A stretch of DNA of 48,399 nucleotides, taken from Candidatus Binatus sp. (GTDB lineage Bacteria; Desulfobacterota; Binatia; Binatales; Binataceae). A program made the position numbers and the translations under genes. The notes beneath the pieces were generated by a model. That model was not told the DNA's origin, ran no database searches, and was given only the letters and a program-made list of their open reading frames with translations. The stretch is from NCBI RefSeq assembly GCF_030646925.1, contig NZ_JAUSKL010000090.1:1-48399 (forward strand). Direction: 5' to 3'. Every line of letters starts with the position of its first letter. Position 1 is the stretch's first letter. Of the stretch, positions 4,279-16,000 are shown piece by piece.

Positions 4279-4617
4279 GGCTAGAACCGACTCGAAGAGA
4301 TTAGGTTTTGGCCAACCATCTGACTTCTTAATTAATGGACAGCAGCCATGCAAATGGCGTCTGAATCACCTTCATCCTGATCGACCTATAACATTCGCAA
4401 AATAGTCAATCTAGCGAGCCGGTTTGATTCGCAGATGCCTAAATTTGCAGCCTGCGAATCTTTTCGACTGCTGGGCCCGCCCGCGCAAATCGTCGAGCGC
4501 TCAACCCAATTGGTCTGTCGCATCGAGCCAATGAGGTAAAAACCCTGCAAATCATTGCGATTTTCCGATGGCATGGCTTTGGCTCTCTGCTCTCCTACAT
4601 CGAGGATGCTGACACCG
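4279..4617. other. Intergenic region between divergent kinase and glycosyltransferase genes
   Basis: This 339-base stretch is visibly more AT-rich than the flanking genes and must hold the promoters for both divergent units. No reading frame in it looks like a protein. I could not place a convincing sigma-70 or sigma-54 promoter: a TTGACT on the minus strand near 4400 lacks a correctly spaced -10 partner. Confidence 0.5.
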
Positions 4618-7113
4618 ATGACCACCACTCAGGAACCGCCGCAGAACATCCAAGCCCATGGAAAATTCTTTTCTTGCAGAGGCCAGAAGTTCTTTTTCAA
4701 GGCGATGCGCCTGCCCGACGTCAGCGCCACCCTCGATTTCGGACAGAAACTCAAAGTTCGCAAACGCCTCGACGATCTCAAGGCCGCGCACACCACCGGC
4801 CTCGTGCTCACCGAATCGCAGGCGCAGCCGCTACTCGATCTCGCCGCGCAATCCGGTCTGTCCGCGATGCTCGAACTTTCGATCGCCCCCGAAGAATTGC
4901 TCCGCGCGCGCGGATGGAAGTCGATCGTTTCGCGGATCGCGCATACCGCGCACGTCTTCAGCCAGCATCCAGCACTGATCGGATACATCCTCGATTGTCC
5001 CGTGCGCCAGGATCAGTTGCGCGCCGGCGGCCTCGCGAATGCTCGCGCGCGTCTCCGCAGCATCATCAGGATCATCAAGGACCGCGCGCCCGCCGCGATC
5101 GCAGGAATCAAGCTGCGCCCCGAGACTCGCGCGCTGACCGTGCTCGAAGAAGATTTTCTCTACGGCGAAATCCCGGCTCTCGAGCCAATCGAAATTCGGG
5201 ATTTCGTCGTTGCCCTGCACAATCTCGCAGAGGCCCGTCCGGTGATTATCGAATTCGCGGATGCATCGCCGGGGCAGGACGAAGCGGTTGCGGTGGCGTT
5301 TGGTACGGGGGCGGCTGGGGTTGTGGCGCCGCCGGTTCCTGCTCCGGTTTCCAAAGATTGGCTCGGCGTGAAGCTGATGCGCGCGTCCGACCTGATGCCG
5401 TTCGTTACGCTCAACGGCACCTGCCCGCCGCCCGCCGCGCGGATGCCGATGGTGTCGGTCGTCATCTGCGCCTACAACGCCGAGCGCACGATGCGCCGGT
5501 GCCTCGAATCGCTGCGCAAGCTCGATTATCCAAACTACGAAGTCGTCATCGTCGATGACGGCTCGCGCGACAGCACCGCCGAAATCTCGATGGATTTTCC
5601 CGAGTTCCGCCTGATTCGACAATCGAATAAGGGACTCAGCGTCGCGCGCAATGTCGGCCTGCACGCCGCGCGCGGCGAGCTAATCGCCTACACCGATTCC
5701 GACTGCGTCGTCGATCCGCACTGGCTCACGCTCATGATGCGCTCGATGGTCGAAAACGATTTCGACGGATGCGGCGGACCGAACTACGCGCCGCATGAAG
5801 ACGGCTGGATCGAGGCGTGCTGCGCCGCGTCGCCCGGCGCTCCATGCCATGTGCTCGTCGGCCAGGATCGCGCCGAGCATCTCGCCGGATGCAACATGGT
5901 TTTCAGCAAGGCGGCGCTGCTCAAGATTGGCGCTTTCGATCCGCAGTACACCGCGGCTGGCGACGACGTCGATATCTGCTGGCGGCTAATCGACGCGGGC
6001 TACAAGCTCGGCTTTTGTCCCGCCGCGTTCGTCTGGCATTTCCGCCGCAACACCATCAAGGCCTACTACGGCCAGCAACGCGGCTACGGTCGCGCCGAAG
6101 CGATGCTCTATCCGCGCTATCCCGAGCGCTTCAACGTGATGCGCCAAATTGCATGGCGCGGCACCATCCCCGGAATCGCGCGCACGCTGCCGGGCGGGAA
6201 TCGCCAACGCGTGATGTGGAATACGGCCGCCGGCTCGCAGGCGCTGTTCGACCCGAGCCTGACGCTCGCCGGCGTGATACCGCAGACGCTCGAATACACG
6301 GTCTTCGCGGCGATCGCGCTGGTCATCTCGATCATCTTGGGATGGAGCGTGATTCCGGCCGCCGCGATGCTGGCGTTGGGACCCATTTGGGCGCTCTACT
6401 ATGGATGGCACGCGCCGCTCGAAAAATCTCACGAGAGCTTCCGGGCGCGCCTGCTGATCGCTTATCTCGCTTATACGGGGCCGATGATTCGAACCATCAC
6501 ACGCTACAAGACGCGCGCGAAAGCCAGTACCGGACTCGGCGCCGCGGAGACGATTCGGCAGAAGCCGTCGATCGATTGGGCGCGCCGCTCGGTCAACCTC
6601 GCGTACTGGAACGAGCAATACGTCACGCGCGACACCCTGCTCGATCGCGTCGTCAAGCTGTTCGCGCGCACCGGCCATCCCGCGATCGTCGACGCGGGAT
6701 GGAACGACTTCGACCTCGAAGTGCATCCGAGCCCCTGGACTCGCATCGAGCTCAAGACTGCTGACGAAGAGCACGGCGGGATGAAGCTCAAGAACATCGT
6801 AGTCGCGCGCATCAGGACGACACGCCTGACCGAGCTGGCGCTCGCAGCCGGCGCACTCAGCGCGGCGATCGCGGCGCTCGCGGGACTGCCGGAAATCGCA
6901 CTGGGCCTCGGCGCACTGACGATCGCGGGCGCGATCTGCGTAGGCGGCGCGATGATCGAAGCAGGGCGCATCGCGTATCGGGCAATCGAGGAATGCGCGA
7001 CCGAGCTGAATCTGTCTCCGCTGGGCAAGCCAGTGCGCGAGCGCTCGCGCGTCGCGGTCGAAGCCGCCGCCAACAACCCCGTCGCGGTACGGATCGACGC
7101 CCAAGAACGCTAG
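4618..7113 (+). CDS. Large multidomain family 2 glycosyltransferase with barrel-like N-terminus
   Basis: The chosen start is the ATG at 4618, preceded by GAGGA 11 bases upstream (831 residues); further ATGs lie upstream at 4555 and 4606. The N-terminal part (about 10-250) begins HGKFFSCRGQKFFFK and has a pattern like the glycoside-hydrolase-type barrel seen fused to GT2 enzymes, but it lacks obvious catalytic acids. Residues about 278-520 form a GT-A fold: SVVICAYNAERTM, VDDGSRDST, DSD (360-362) for the nucleotide-sugar metal, and AGDDVDICWRL in the acceptor/base region. Membrane helices follow at about 561-597. After a soluble stretch the C-terminus has another hydrophobic pair (LALAAGALSAAIAALAG and a second). 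It probably acts at the inner membrane in polysaccharide synthesis. Donor and acceptor cannot be read from the sequence. Confidence 0.88.
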   Translation: MTTTQEPPQNIQAHGKFFSCRGQKFFFKAMRLPDVSATLDFGQKLKVRKRLDDLKAAHTTGLVLTESQAQPLLDLAAQSGLSAMLELSIAPEELLRARGWKSIVSRIAHTAHVFSQHPALIGYILDCPVRQDQLRAGGLANARARLRSIIRIIKDRAPAAIAGIKLRPETRALTVLEEDFLYGEIPALEPIEIRDFVVALHNLAEARPVIIEFADASPGQDEAVAVAFGTGAAGVVAPPVPAPVSKDWLGVKLMRASDLMPFVTLNGTCPPPAARMPMVSVVICAYNAERTMRRCLESLRKLDYPNYEVVIVDDGSRDSTAEISMDFPEFRLIRQSNKGLSVARNVGLHAARGELIAYTDSDCVVDPHWLTLMMRSMVENDFDGCGGPNYAPHEDGWIEACCAASPGAPCHVLVGQDRAEHLAGCNMVFSKAALLKIGAFDPQYTAAGDDVDICWRLIDAGYKLGFCPAAFVWHFRRNTIKAYYGQQRGYGRAEAMLYPRYPERFNVMRQIAWRGTIPGIARTLPGGNRQRVMWNTAAGSQALFDPSLTLAGVIPQTLEYTVFAAIALVISIILGWSVIPAAAMLALGPIWALYYGWHAPLEKSHESFRARLLIAYLAYTGPMIRTITRYKTRAKASTGLGAAETIRQKPSIDWARRSVNLAYWNEQYVTRDTLLDRVVKLFARTGHPAIVDAGWNDFDLEVHPSPWTRIELKTADEEHGGMKLKNIVVARIRTTRLTELALAAGALSAAIAALAGLPEIALGLGALTIAGAICVGGAMIEAGRIAYRAIEECATELNLSPLGKPVRERSRVAVEAAANNPVAVRIDAQER

Positions 7114-7170
7114 CCGCGCCCCCGCCCAAATGGACCCCCATCAACGCTAAGATCTCGGTGGTCCAGCAAC

Positions 7171-7200
7171 GTGACGATCCGGCGCCATCGGCGGCGTCAC
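7171..7200 (+). terminator. Possible hairpin terminator after the glycosyltransferase
   Basis: GTGACG at 7171 pairs with CGTCAC at 7195-7200, with an inner CCG/CGG helix. No T-run follows, so a Rho-independent function is uncertain. Confidence 0.35.
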
Positions 7201-7290
7201 GTGGCGCAAGACTCGCCCGGCTTTAGTCCGAATCTGTCCGATAATCCTGACTGACTGATAGATTGATGCGTCCAGTCGGCAGCCACTCGA

Positions 7291-7332
7291 TCACGAGCCG
7301 CCGCGATTGAAGTGATCGGCGAGCAAGATAGC
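7291..7332 (-). repeat. Copy A of the M20 peptidase 3' tail
   Basis: Read on the minus strand this encodes AILLADHFNRGGS followed by a stop. It closely resembles the final residues NVLADHFKRRGSGS-stop of the M20 peptidase whose gene ends at 9980. The DNA shares the 14-base block TTGAAGTGATCGGC with that gene. Upstream of these codons the similarity to the peptidase stops. See copies at 8087-8122 and 9980-10024. Confidence 0.6.
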
Positions 7333-7480
7333 GATGCTCGCGCTGGCTGCGATGCTCGCGGCGCCGCCGGTGGTGGGAATCACGCTGCCGCTGGCGAGTG
7401 ACGGCAGATCGTCGCTGATCGCGATGATGGCGGCGATCGGAATCCTGATCAACATCAACGCCCGCCGCTTCCTGTTCTAG
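7316..7480 (+). pseudogene. FtsW/RodA family gene remnant, C-terminal end only
   Basis: In this frame the translation includes AAPPVVGITLPLASDGRSSL, then IAMMAAIGILININARRFLF and a TAG stop at 7478-7480. It matches the C-terminal signature of FtsW/RodA (SEDS) glycan polymerases, where PVVG-LPL-SYGGSSL is followed by a helix ending near the C-terminus. Only about 54 codons are open; an in-frame TGA at 7313-7315 closes the 5' side, and the usual S-Y-G-G reads S-D-G-R. No start signal is visible. It is a non-functional fragment left by rearrangement. The identification rests on pattern recognition in a short piece. The rest of 7114-7572 contains only the hairpin at 7171-7200 and peptidase-tail copy A. 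Confidence 0.55.
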
Positions 7481-7572
7481 ATTGAATCTTCGGCCTGCGT
7501 CGGTCACACTTGAGATCGGCCCTATTTGATCTCTTGAACAACGCCACGGGACAGTCTGTCTAGGTACTTTTC

Positions 7573-8064
7573 ATGGTAAAGAAGAGAGCAGTGTGTACGC
7601 ATTGCGGTGAAACAGCCTTGGAGGTCTACATATCGGTACCGGTCGAGACCGAGGGCACCGGTTTCCCATTTATTCGATCAATCCTGTGTCCCAACGGATT
7701 TGGCGAGATCACCGAAGACGGATTGCTCATCAACACTGAAGATACGCCGAAAAAGTATAGCTATGCGCTGGATGAACCAGAGGAGGGATCGAGCTACACT
7801 CTTTGCAAAGCGCCCGGCTTGAGAAAATCGGACCAGGGAAACGGGATACTACTAGCGGAATTTGACGGGGAGGTTCGACGAATATCTCGCAACACGGTCG
7901 ACATTACGTCAGCAAGGAAGATGCCCTGGAATTCGAAAGCCGCGCAAAGAAGGTTTCGGCAACTGTTGAGCGAATCGAACAACAAAACTACAGTTGGTCG
8001 AAGGCCGCACCGTCCGACAACCCTATCGGCATCATCGCTTTCTCTTGTGCCGCGCAAGGATTAG
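7573..8064 (+). CDS. Uncharacterised zinc-ribbon protein, short paralogue of the gene at 9028
   Basis: The 163-residue product is not from a family I recognise. It starts with CTHCGE (Cys8, Cys11); further on it has LCPNGFGEITEDGLL, and near residue 115 DITSARKMPWNSKAAQRRFR. The same three blocks occur in the same order in the 308-residue product at 9028-9954 (CPQCGA; CANGHGEVTEDGLL; DLLSAKKIQWNLKAAKRRFR), so the two are paralogues. After the shared SNN at about residue 137 this copy ends in 26 unrelated residues. It lacks the second protein's C-terminal helical domain, so it is either a natural short form or a truncated gene. Base composition is clearly lower in GC than the flanking genes, consistent with transfer. 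Confidence 0.65.
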   Translation: MVKKRAVCTHCGETALEVYISVPVETEGTGFPFIRSILCPNGFGEITEDGLLINTEDTPKKYSYALDEPEEGSSYTLCKAPGLRKSDQGNGILLAEFDGEVRRISRNTVDITSARKMPWNSKAAQRRFRQLLSESNNKTTVGRRPHRPTTLSASSLSLVPRKD

Positions 8065-8086
8065 ACCGTAGGTTCAGTTCAGTCGA

Positions 8087-8122
8087 TCACGAACTGCCGC
8101 GACCGCTATGATTCGCCAACAC
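8087..8122 (-). repeat. Copy C of the M20 peptidase 3' tail
   Basis: The minus strand reads VLANHSGRGSS then stop, against VLADHFKRRGSGS-stop for the intact peptidase and LLADHFNRGGS-stop for copy A. With preceding bases it shares TCGATCACGA and GCCGCGA with copy A. It lies just after the first zinc-ribbon gene, as the intact tail lies just after the second. Confidence 0.5.
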
Positions 8123-8148
8123 GCAGGAACAAGGGGAACACTCGGTCG

Positions 8149-9024
8149 ATGGGCTTCCTAAAGCTTTTACTTAATTCGTTTTCGCCCAATGCCGAAGGCG
8201 TTAGAGAGGCGATGCGAATCTCGTACGCCAAGCACCTCCGGTTGGCTAAAGCAGGCCGTATACCAGTCCCGGAGGGAACTACGCCCCATGAAGTGGCGCT
8301 ATACGGCTCTCTTGCTTCGAGGTATCGAGCACTAAGTCAGGACTGGACGGAGGTCGAACTCATGTCGGACTTAGCTCCCTTTCTTATGATGGATCAGAGT
8401 GACGCCGTAGAGGCGGTTGCGGAGTACGCGGCTATGAAGGAATACCCCACGCAGGCGCGGATTCGTTGGTTGAAGGAGCAGATAAATCAGACGATTAGAA
8501 ACTTGACTGGTGCCGAGAAAGAATCGGCTTTGTTTGTCCCTCTCTTTCCAGGCTTAACGAACAGGCAAATTGAGTGGTGGAAGCTTCTTGACGAGCCAGC
8601 GCGCCTGTTGGTCGAACGCCAGTTGGAAATGGTGCAGAAGAAGGAAGTGCAACCTGAAGAGAATGACGACGCTCTCGATTCGATTCTTCGAGAAGCTGGA
8701 TGGCAGAGCGAAGACGATGAAGAGCTCGTAAAAGAAGTGCGCGAATTACTCCAAAAGGCTAACTATCCGGACGACCTGGATAGATATTTCGACGTACTGC
8801 GCAGGCATGGGTGCGCGATGAATGTCGCGGGAACCTATGCGGATAACTCGGAGAGATGGGAGTTTTCGAAAGTTTCCGGGGGAAGGGAGATTAGCGTGAC
8901 GATCACTTTCTCGCGCGATAGTCGTAGCCTTAGCTGGAGAGGAACTCTCGGCCTCGTTTCTGGCGAGGTGACTACTGGTCAATCCGTCGCGCAACTGGAA
9001 GCCCAACTGGCCGAGTGGGCGTAA
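8149..9024 (+). CDS. Uncharacterised 291-residue soluble protein in the low-GC cassette
   Basis: I do not recognise this family. The protein is soluble, with no signal peptide or membrane segment. The first two thirds look helical and are rich in charged residues, including an acidic stretch around residues 165-190 (EENDDALDS, SEDDEELVKE). The last third looks beta-rich (WEFSKVSGGREISVTITFSRD, then LSWRGTLGLVSGEVTTG). It ends at 9024, four bases before the next ATG, so it forms an operon with the zinc-ribbon protein at 9028. Codon usage and GC content differ from the neighbouring high-GC genes. Confidence 0.75.
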   Translation: MGFLKLLLNSFSPNAEGVREAMRISYAKHLRLAKAGRIPVPEGTTPHEVALYGSLASRYRALSQDWTEVELMSDLAPFLMMDQSDAVEAVAEYAAMKEYPTQARIRWLKEQINQTIRNLTGAEKESALFVPLFPGLTNRQIEWWKLLDEPARLLVERQLEMVQKKEVQPEENDDALDSILREAGWQSEDDEELVKEVRELLQKANYPDDLDRYFDVLRRHGCAMNVAGTYADNSERWEFSKVSGGREISVTITFSRDSRSLSWRGTLGLVSGEVTTGQSVAQLEAQLAEWA

Positions 9025-9027
9025 ACA

Positions 9028-9954
9028 ATGAACGACAAAAGCCTTGTATGTCCGCAGTGTGGTGCAGACGCGCACAGGGGTTTGGTCGCGGACGGGGATG
9101 AAGTCGACTGGTCGGCCAGATGCGCCAACGGTCATGGCGAGGTTACTGAAGACGGGTTGCTCCTGACCACCGAAAAAGCGGCGGATGGCTATGAAGTTAC
9201 GCAGGAAGCCGGAAAGGATGGGCGGGTCATCTGTCGCTATGGCGGACCTTGGAAAATTGCCGACACTCTCCTGCAGAGCATTCTTGACTTGGAGAGGCAA
9301 CGTCTCGGGCCCGGCAAGACAGTCGATCTCTTGTCTGCAAAGAAAATACAATGGAATTTAAAGGCCGCGAAAAGGAGGTTTCGGAGACTATTGAACCGAT
9401 CGAATAACAACCTCCCTCCGATCGAAGATCAGAGCTTGCGGGAACTGGCAGCTGAATTACTCGACGAATACCGGAAGGGCATGTGGACAGGCGATGATGC
9501 CTGGTACTCCGATGACGACCTCATGAGATGGTCACAAGAAGGGTTCTTTCAGGAGTTAAAGGACTATGAGCTTCGCAAAAGCCGGGAGCCCATGCTGGTA
9601 TTGTCAAAGCTTCTGCCCGAGCCACTCTCGACAGCGTTTCATCAGGTAAGGGAGTGTTACCGAAACGGCCTTTTCGTCGGGACGGTGGGAATGAGCCGTG
9701 TAATCCTGGAGGATGTTGTCAAGCGCGCCTCCGGGGACTTGGAAGACGGATCTTCCTTTGTTCAAATGGTGTACAGACTTCCGGAAAGTCTACTACAGAC
9801 TCGAGATAAGCAAAAAGCTATCAGGCTTAAATTCGACAGCAACACAGTCCTCCACGCTGCCGGAGTTGGATTTAGCGAGAGCGAAGCGTTTCTGCATTTT
9901 TCAGGGGTAGCCGAAATTGTAAGTATCCTGGCGAACAAAGGCACCCTCAATTGA
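9028..9954 (+). CDS. Uncharacterised zinc-ribbon protein with DUF4145-like helical C-terminus
   Basis: The 308-residue protein begins with a CPQCGA knuckle (Cys9, Cys12) and a second block CANGHGEVTEDGLL, probably completing a zinc ribbon. A basic segment SAKKIQWNLKAAKRRFRR follows near 110-125. The last 110 residues (from LSTAFHQVRECYRNGLFVGT, through MSRVILEDVVKRA, to NTVLHAAGVGFSESEAFLHF) have the helical pattern of DUF4145-type domains, including a histidine near the expected place. DUF4145 proteins are often found in mobile and defence contexts; that this is a defence gene is inference. It sits immediately after the 291-residue gene. Low GC suggests it arrived with that gene. Confidence 0.75.
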   Translation: MNDKSLVCPQCGADAHRGLVADGDEVDWSARCANGHGEVTEDGLLLTTEKAADGYEVTQEAGKDGRVICRYGGPWKIADTLLQSILDLERQRLGPGKTVDLLSAKKIQWNLKAAKRRFRRLLNRSNNNLPPIEDQSLRELAAELLDEYRKGMWTGDDAWYSDDDLMRWSQEGFFQELKDYELRKSREPMLVLSKLLPEPLSTAFHQVRECYRNGLFVGTVGMSRVILEDVVKRASGDLEDGSSFVQMVYRLPESLLQTRDKQKAIRLKFDSNTVLHAAGVGFSESEAFLHFSGVAEIVSILANKGTLN

Positions 9955-9979
9955 TCCAACAGTCCGATAGTTGCTCGAA

Positions 9980-10024
9980 TCACGAACCGCTGCCGCGTCG
10001 TTTGAAGTGATCGGCCAGTACGTT
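9980..10024 (-). repeat. Copy B of the peptidase tail, inside the intact M20 gene
   Basis: These are the last 15 codons, stop included, of the intact M20 peptidase gene (NVLADHFKRRGSGS-stop). They are the reference for the degenerate copies at 7291-7332 and 8087-8122. All three are in the same orientation and immediately adjoin cassette sequence, like the boundaries of an element that uses a gene's 3' end as its insertion site. Confidence 0.6.
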
Positions 10025-11401
10025 GGCGACGCAGCAGGTCAGTTTCTTCGCAGTCGGGATATGCAGAAATTCGTTGGGGCCGTGCGCGTTCGCGTGCGGT
10101 CCAAGCACGCCGGTGATCAGGAACTGCGCTTCCGGAAAGCGCTCGCCGAGCATCGCCATGAACGGAATCGTGCCGCCCTCGCCCATGTACGCAGTCGGCT
10201 TGCCGAAGTAGTCATTCGACGCGGCGTCGAGGCTGCGCTCGAGCCACGGCGAAAGTTCCGGCGCGTTCCATCCGCTGGCGCCCCAGTTCGGCGCGAAACT
10301 GACCCTCGCATCGTGCGGCGGATTTTCTTCGAGCAATGATTTGAGCTTCTGCGTCGCGATTTTAGGATCGCAGGTCGGCGGCAATCGCAGCGACAGCGTC
10401 ACCGCGGTTTGCGGGCGCAGCACGTTGCCGGAATTGGCGGTCGGCGGCAGTCCGTCGGCGCCGATAATCGACAGCGCGGGACGCCAGGTGCGATTCAGCA
10501 CGAGTTCAGTGAGATCGCGGCTGACTGGCTGCGTCGCCCCTGCGAACGGAAATTTCTTGTAGATGTCGTCGCCCAGCACCGACGCCGTCGCCGACGCCTG
10601 CTTGAGGCGCGCCGCGGGAATCTCGACGTGAAACTCGCGCGCGAGCACTTCTCCGCTCGCCTCATCCTCGACGCGACTCAGCAGTTGCCTGACGATTCGA
10701 AAACTGTCCGGCACGACGCCGCCCGCATCGCCGGAATGCATCCCCTCCGTCAGCACCTCGACCGTTAGCCGGCCGCCGACCAGTCCGCGCAGCGAAGTGG
10801 TGCACCAAAGCTGCTCGTAATTGCCGCATCCCGAATCGAGCGCGATCACCAGGCTCGGCTGGCCGATGCGCGCCGCGAGATGCTCGATGTAATGCGGCAG
10901 GTCGAAGCTGCCGCTTTCTTCGCACGCCTCGATCACGACGACGCATCGCGCATGCGTGATGCTGTTCGCTTGCAGCGCGCCGATTGCCGCCATGCACGCG
11001 AACGTCGCGTAACCGTCGTCGGCCGCGCCGCGCCCGTACAATCGATCGCCCTCGAGCACCGGTTCCCACGGCCCAAGGCCGTCGCGCCATCCCGCCATCT
11101 CGGGCTGTTTATCCATATGCCCGTAGAGCAAAACGCAGTCGTCGGATTTACCGGGGATGTCGATGAACAGCAGCGGCGTGCGTCCTTCGAGGCGCGCGAC
11201 TTCGACCTTCATCCCCGCGATCGGCTGGCGCCGCACCCAATTCTCGAAGCGCGCGACGACGCGCTCCATGTGCCCGTGCGCCATCCATTCCTTGTCGAAC
11301 GCGACCGACTTGTTCGGGATGCGGATGTACTCAATCAGCTCGGAAACGATCGAGCTATCCCAGAGCTGTTCGACGTGACTGCGAATCGATGCCTTATCCA
11401 T
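9980..11401 (-). CDS. M20 family zinc metallopeptidase
   Basis: The 473-residue protein has the M20 co-catalytic zinc centre: His95 in LLYGHMDKQP, Asp128 in GRGAADDG, the Glu pair near 161 in EACEESGS, an Asp in ALDSGCGN, and a late His in GPHANAHGPNEF. A dimerisation domain interrupts the catalytic one (HSGDAGG region). Length is typical of M20 dipeptidases/carboxypeptidases acting in the cytoplasm, since no signal peptide is seen. The specific substrate is unknown. It is transcribed towards the low-GC cassette, and degenerate copies of its 3' end occur twice within that cassette. Confidence 0.92.
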   Translation of the reverse strand: MDKASIRSHVEQLWDSSIVSELIEYIRIPNKSVAFDKEWMAHGHMERVVARFENWVRRQPIAGMKVEVARLEGRTPLLFIDIPGKSDDCVLLYGHMDKQPEMAGWRDGLGPWEPVLEGDRLYGRGAADDGYATFACMAAIGALQANSITHARCVVVIEACEESGSFDLPHYIEHLAARIGQPSLVIALDSGCGNYEQLWCTTSLRGLVGGRLTVEVLTEGMHSGDAGGVVPDSFRIVRQLLSRVEDEASGEVLAREFHVEIPAARLKQASATASVLGDDIYKKFPFAGATQPVSRDLTELVLNRTWRPALSIIGADGLPPTANSGNVLRPQTAVTLSLRLPPTCDPKIATQKLKSLLEENPPHDARVSFAPNWGASGWNAPELSPWLERSLDAASNDYFGKPTAYMGEGGTIPFMAMLGERFPEAQFLITGVLGPHANAHGPNEFLHIPTAKKLTCCVANVLADHFKRRGSGS

Positions 11402-15904: not shown

Positions 15905-16000
15905 TGGCGGAGGGGGGAGGGAGTCGAACCCTCCGGCGACAGTATTAGCCGCCAAGCCGGTTTTGAAGACCGGTGGGGCCACCGGGCCCCTTCCTCCTCC
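15905..16000 (-). tRNA. selC: tRNA-Sec (anticodon TCA)
   Basis: The minus strand from 16000 starts GGAGGAGGAAGGGG and ends with CCA encoded at 15907-15905. The anticodon arm is CCGGT-CTTCAAA-ACCGG, with anticodon TCA at 15966-15964. A long variable arm (GGCGGC...GTCGCC) and the T arm GAGGG-TTCGACT-CCCTC follow. The eight-base acceptor stem (with one A-C mismatch) and about 96 nucleotides overall fit bacterial selenocysteine tRNA. The organism should therefore decode UGA as selenocysteine; selA, selB and selD are not in this window. The gene borders a stress-type island and a broken SDR gene, as expected for a tRNA used as an integration site. Confidence 0.93.

Follow-up and report, generated by a model that had tools for sequence, protein, structure and literature searches.

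Microhomology-mediated tandem duplications and gene remnants occur at bacterial rearrangement breakpoints, and template-switching repair can give short inserts with shared bases at their edges. Some integrative elements have their attachment site at the 3' end of protein-coding genes, and staggered breaks leave duplicated ends at inversion breakpoints. Inversions in Drosophila are the subject of two papers (PMC5080602, PMC6861252). Here, we describe a locus of an uncultured soil bacterium in which a degenerate copy of the 3' end of an M20 peptidase gene, and possibly a second one, lies near low-GC accessory genes. A literature search found no title or abstract opening naming this M20/rodA/zinc-ribbon locus.

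The window, by which we mean the whole stretch of 48,399 nucleotides that was analysed, lies on contig C90 of a genome labeled G000. All genus genomes used are drafts of 50 to 530 contigs, and the closest relative among the genomes compared, G003, has an M20 gene 92 to 93% identical to that of the window. A glycosyltransferase family 2 gene (GT; 4555..7113, plus strand; Pfam PF00535, E 6.3e-33) forms the left flank of the proposed breakpoint, and the intact M20 family metallopeptidase gene occupies 9980..11401 on the minus strand (PF01546, E 3.4e-19). GT, tail1, tail2, ZR1, ORF2, ZR3 and, below, X are labels of our own. A selenocysteine tRNA gene was also identified at 15905-16000 (ARAGORN). 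The tails look like scars of ordinary local duplication and chromosome rearrangement, not like the docking site of a mobile element, and we consider it probable that they are debris of a duplication followed by an exchange of neighboring regions.

A first-pass annotation had described three copies of the M20 gene tail, two of them degenerate, and its coordinates and minus-strand peptides are correct at all three places (7291-7332, 8087-8122 and 9980-10024). When the blocks were aligned as DNA against shuffled controls, tail1 (7261..7326, minus strand) beat shuffled sequence clearly and tail2 (8071..8121, minus strand) much less so. Tail1 reached a local score of 28.0 against the M20 end, which none of 3000 dinucleotide-shuffled pairs attained (maximum 21.0), and a stricter scoring gave 41 against a shuffle maximum of 29. 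The match has 78% identity in an ungapped alignment of 41 bases. When 5088 overlapping blocks from both strands of the window were scored against the M20 end, values above 19 came exclusively from blocks covering tail1 or M20. Outside the gene itself, tail1 is the window's best blastn match to M20, at an E value of only 0.005, with the next, unrelated match at 0.016. It may include about 26 bp of the intergenic flank 3' of M20, an extension that raises the score from 28 to 31, a weak gain of only 3 units. In tail1, the M20 3' end has a genuine, though degenerate, copy.

Tail2 scored 16.0 against M20, which was reached in 4 of 3000 shuffles (7 of 3000 under the stricter scoring), and it is absent from the blastn matches of the M20 gene within the window. 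Against M20, blocks of the window with no relation to it reach 19, above tail2. Its score against tail1 is 18.0 (0 of 3000 shuffles, maximum 17.5), and its joint score against M20 and tail1 was equalled or beaten by 4 of 8418 overlapping control blocks, at three places. A set of 21 comparisons among intergenic pieces gave two low counts, between the pieces before and after ZR1 (6 of 500 shuffles) and between those after ZR1 and after ZR3 (7 of 500), the latter being the tail2 signal again. From these alignments, tail2 is suggestive, a probable copy of the M20 3' end at best and strongly degenerate if so, and its similarity may be chance.

The most informative feature of the locus is a remnant of rodA beside tail1. 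It consists of two plus-strand pieces, an internal one at 7323..7367 (87% identical over 45 bp to positions 8321-8365 of L049, the rodA locus on contig C46 of the same genome) and a 3' end at 7363..7479 (90% over 117 bp to L049 8757-8873), with about 390 bp of rodA absent between them. The remnant therefore separates tail1 from ZR1, and GT is the other neighbor of tail1, so that the claim that the degenerate tails directly adjoin cassette genes fails for tail1. An intact rodA is present at L049 7768-8874, as the last gene of a run that we take, from the protein sequences, to be mreB, mreC, mreD, mrdA and rodA; the run through the rodA stop is also conserved in G001, G004, G005 and G006. The remnant is nearest to its own genome's rodA (distance 0.111 over 153 columns), followed by the rodA genes of five other genus members (0.144-0.176) and of G016 (0.294); G002, with a partial rodA, was left out of this comparison. 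The grouping of the remnant with its own rodA is weak (FastTree 0.721 and 0.788, IQ-TREE 67), and the remnant branch is longer. The remnant encodes SDGRSS in place of the SYGGSS found in RodA of G000 and G003, a change expected of decay. The two parts of the debris differ in divergence, with tail1 at 78% identity to M20 (41 bases) versus about 89% for the remnant to rodA.

At about 7323-7330, M20-like sequence turns into rodA sequence. Here, the sequence is GCACGATGGCGA in the genome's own rodA, GCACGTTTGCGA at the M20 end of G003 and GCAAGATAGCGA in the window. RodA and the G003 M20 have GCACG in common at this position, then GCGA a few bases on, and beyond GCACG, there is no significant similarity between M20 and rodA at the join. 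The genome's own M20 end has GTACGTTGGCGA, that is, GTACG. Judged on these short strings, microhomology at GCACG is plausible, not proven, since the five bases are found with the M20 of G003 alone and the genome's own M20 differs.

The first-pass annotation had proposed looking for a relative with an empty site, and G003 provides one, with convergent rodA and M20 genes, 27 bp between their stops and no cassette, on a single 5.6 kb contig. The empty site does not discriminate between explanations, as both insertion between rodA and M20 and tandem duplication fit it. The neighbors change reciprocally between the two draft genomes. G003 has GT next to X, a segment with a small gene and then further genes that we take to be permeases, and rodA next to M20; G000 has GT next to M20 and rodA next to X. 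This reciprocal swap indicates that the window spans a rearrangement breakpoint. Because a fragment of rodA remains beside M20 in G000, we infer that the rodA-M20 order is older than the GT-M20 order. The polarity depends on this fragment, since neither rodA-M20 nor GT-X was found in the stretches read of the other five genus members (less than 700 bp past GT in G004 and G006). Downstream of the intact rodA, there is no convincing M20 tail; the scores there were reached by 62 of 2000 shuffles for M20, 38 of 2000 for tail1, 254 of 2000 for tail2 and 1183 of 2000 for the M20 end of G003. The sequence before tail1 (7114-7260) shows no remains of the cassette, GT or C46 genes, no comparison falling at or below 6 of 200 shuffles.

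Between the rodA remnant and M20 lie three plus-strand genes, the zinc-ribbon-like ZR1 (7573..8064), ORF2 (8149..9024) and ZR3 (9028..9954), which has a zinc-ribbon-like N-terminus and a longer C-terminal part. Their GC3 values of 0.56-0.59, compared with 0.77-0.82 for GT, M20, CaiB and rodA, fit a foreign origin of the cassette. None of the three had a Pfam match above the cut-off, a PADLOC match or a PHROG match better than E 0.017. Among the other genomes, 2 of 144 in the class have relatives of ORF2 and 1 of 394 in the phylum has a relative of ZR3. G012 has a zinc-ribbon-like relative where one of its contigs ends (L055 120-794). Searches of genome contigs, plasmids, phages and viral contigs gave no relative of ZR3, and its predicted structure (mean pLDDT 44.8) is too poor for use. 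The zinc-ribbon-like family of ZR1 and ZR3 is thus very rare. In G003, a low-GC ORF with a CHAT domain (L021:3136-4827, in the M20 locus; GC3 0.54; Pfam E 2.4e-8) separates the CaiB gene from the 5' end of M20. It is absent from the window and, together with the window's cassette, indicates that both sides of M20 have taken in low-GC genes.

We propose the following history. In an ancestor, rodA and M20 would have been convergent neighbors, an arrangement kept in G003. A tandem duplication that began within rodA and ended within the M20 tail, with its junction at a short run of common bases, would have produced a partial M20 tail (tail1), a partial rodA directly after it and then the full M20; duplication from the G003 order predicts the order observed, namely M20 tail, rodA interior, rodA 3' end and M20. 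In the window, the end of this unit is joined straight to its beginning with the original orientations kept. Of the two full flanking copies that a tandem duplication leaves, M20 is in place, and the full rodA is on C46 beside X. Its absence from the debris is explained solely by the proposed exchange between the rodA-M20 and GT-X regions, which would have placed GT beside the debris and the intact rodA operon beside X. This exchange may have been an inversion or a translocation. The rodA fragment would then have lost its internal piece and decayed, and the low-GC genes would have come in between the rodA debris and M20. Tail2 may be a further small copy made at their entry, or chance.

The first-pass annotation had instead favored tandem duplication of a unit made of a zinc-ribbon gene plus the M20 tail, which would yield ZR1-tail2 and ZR3-M20. 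Duplication as such fits the locus, and the tail after each zinc-ribbon gene is borne out in part, as ZR1 and ZR3 are paralogous and co-oriented with a tail-like block after each, and tail2 resembles tail1 and, less so, M20. Tail1, however, falls outside this pattern and is left unexplained, with no zinc-ribbon gene before it; its unit is the rodA end plus the M20 tail. The two proteins are only 40% identical, and their genes have a dS of about 1.07 (Nei-Gojobori, 126 codons), well above that between G000 and G003 for M20 (0.60) and rodA (0.52), which makes the unit unlikely as a local event. ZR1 resembles the N-terminal part of ZR3 and lacks its C-terminal part, and no copy of ORF2 was seen before ZR1. 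By these values, the split of ZR1 and ZR3 looks older than that of G000 and G003, so the two probably arrived already diverged. Their divergence exceeds what occupancy of the site would allow if G003 was always empty, and the zinc-ribbon genes may have been lost from G003. Overall, we regard duplication of this unit within the cassette as unlikely. We give similarly little weight to the idea that tail1 arose as a short filler when the break was repaired with the nearby M20 end as template, without tandem duplication. A short insert with common bases at its edge agrees with template switching, and the sequence to the left of tail1 otherwise lacks an explanation. Filler would nevertheless require a separate joining of tail1 with the rodA fragment, in just the order and orientation that follow directly from a single tandem duplication.

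The same annotation had also considered site-specific insertion at the M20 3' end, with the gene end rebuilt at each insertion and the old ends left as attL and att copies. Up to three same-orientation copies of this end do surround low-GC accessory genes, and the site is empty in G003. Tail1 and tail2 also have 18 bases in common over 20 positions, a pattern that both match by construction, and its six other matches in the genome each carry 2 mismatches. We searched for this pattern as a dispersed repeat or att motif in seven genus genomes, allowing at most 2 mismatches, and rejected it, as every other listed match has 2 mismatches. Against insertion, tail1 borders on its inner side the interior of rodA instead of element sequence, so that the attL/att/attR reading fails there, and no direct gene-end repeat flanks an element at both boundaries. 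The tail copies are also too diverged to hold a conserved core. The remark that no integrase is visible holds, as Pfam matches none in the cassette ORFs and a genome-wide recombinase search, covering the PF00589 phage-integrase family only, gave four matches (on C3, C24, C102 and C114) and none on C90. Nor does the repeat recur. Of 25 relatives with an M20 match, we obtained the locus in 19, of which 18 had enough flank (903 to 3000 bp), and none of these 18 had an M20 tail repeat downstream of M20 above shuffles (lowest counts 6 of 60 and 9 of 60). Taken together, an integrative element using this gene end seems very improbable. It is harder still to credit that the rare zinc-ribbon family moves as small integrase-free cassettes, each copying the 3' terminus of whatever gene it lands beside; were this true, a copied gene tail would mark each arrival, with tail1 and tail2 as two of these scars and the rodA piece as one from a second target.

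We also tested the best 80 of 582 confirmed M20 stretches in genome contigs, whose genomes partly overlap the 18 relatives. Two of these 80 scored above 24 (L109 and L125), and opposite-strand controls reach 28. L125 was rejected as a tail repeat, being a gapped GC-rich match. The sole clear case among the 80 is L109, from a proteobacterial bin, where a second M20-like gene end follows M20 in the same orientation at about 7494 to 9550; from the C-terminal part seen, we read it as a complete tandem copy of the M20 gene.

The reach of these observations past the M20/rodA locus is small. They suggest that gene-end repeats resembling attachment sites can be rearrangement scars, which calls for caution in naming integration sites from tails alone, and that an overlooked fragment of a former neighbor, here rodA, can reveal an older gene order.

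Compared with integrative elements that use gene 3' ends, the locus has partial gene-end copies beside accessory genes and an empty site in a relative. It differs in that rodA sequence bounds tail1 on the inside, C90 carries no match to a tyrosine integrase, the repeat does not recur in the relatives examined and a conserved core is lacking. The staggered-break inversions are similar in that part of the broken region, namely the end of rodA, occurs at both new places, but such breaks alone give no M20 tail directly before a rodA fragment. As for microhomology-mediated tandem duplications, the full rodA is gone from the debris and unrelated low-GC genes adjoin it, which sets the locus apart from them. 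It shares with them and with the remnants at bacterial breakpoints a partial gene end set head-to-tail with the interior of its convergent neighbor at a few common bases, followed by decay and internal deletion.
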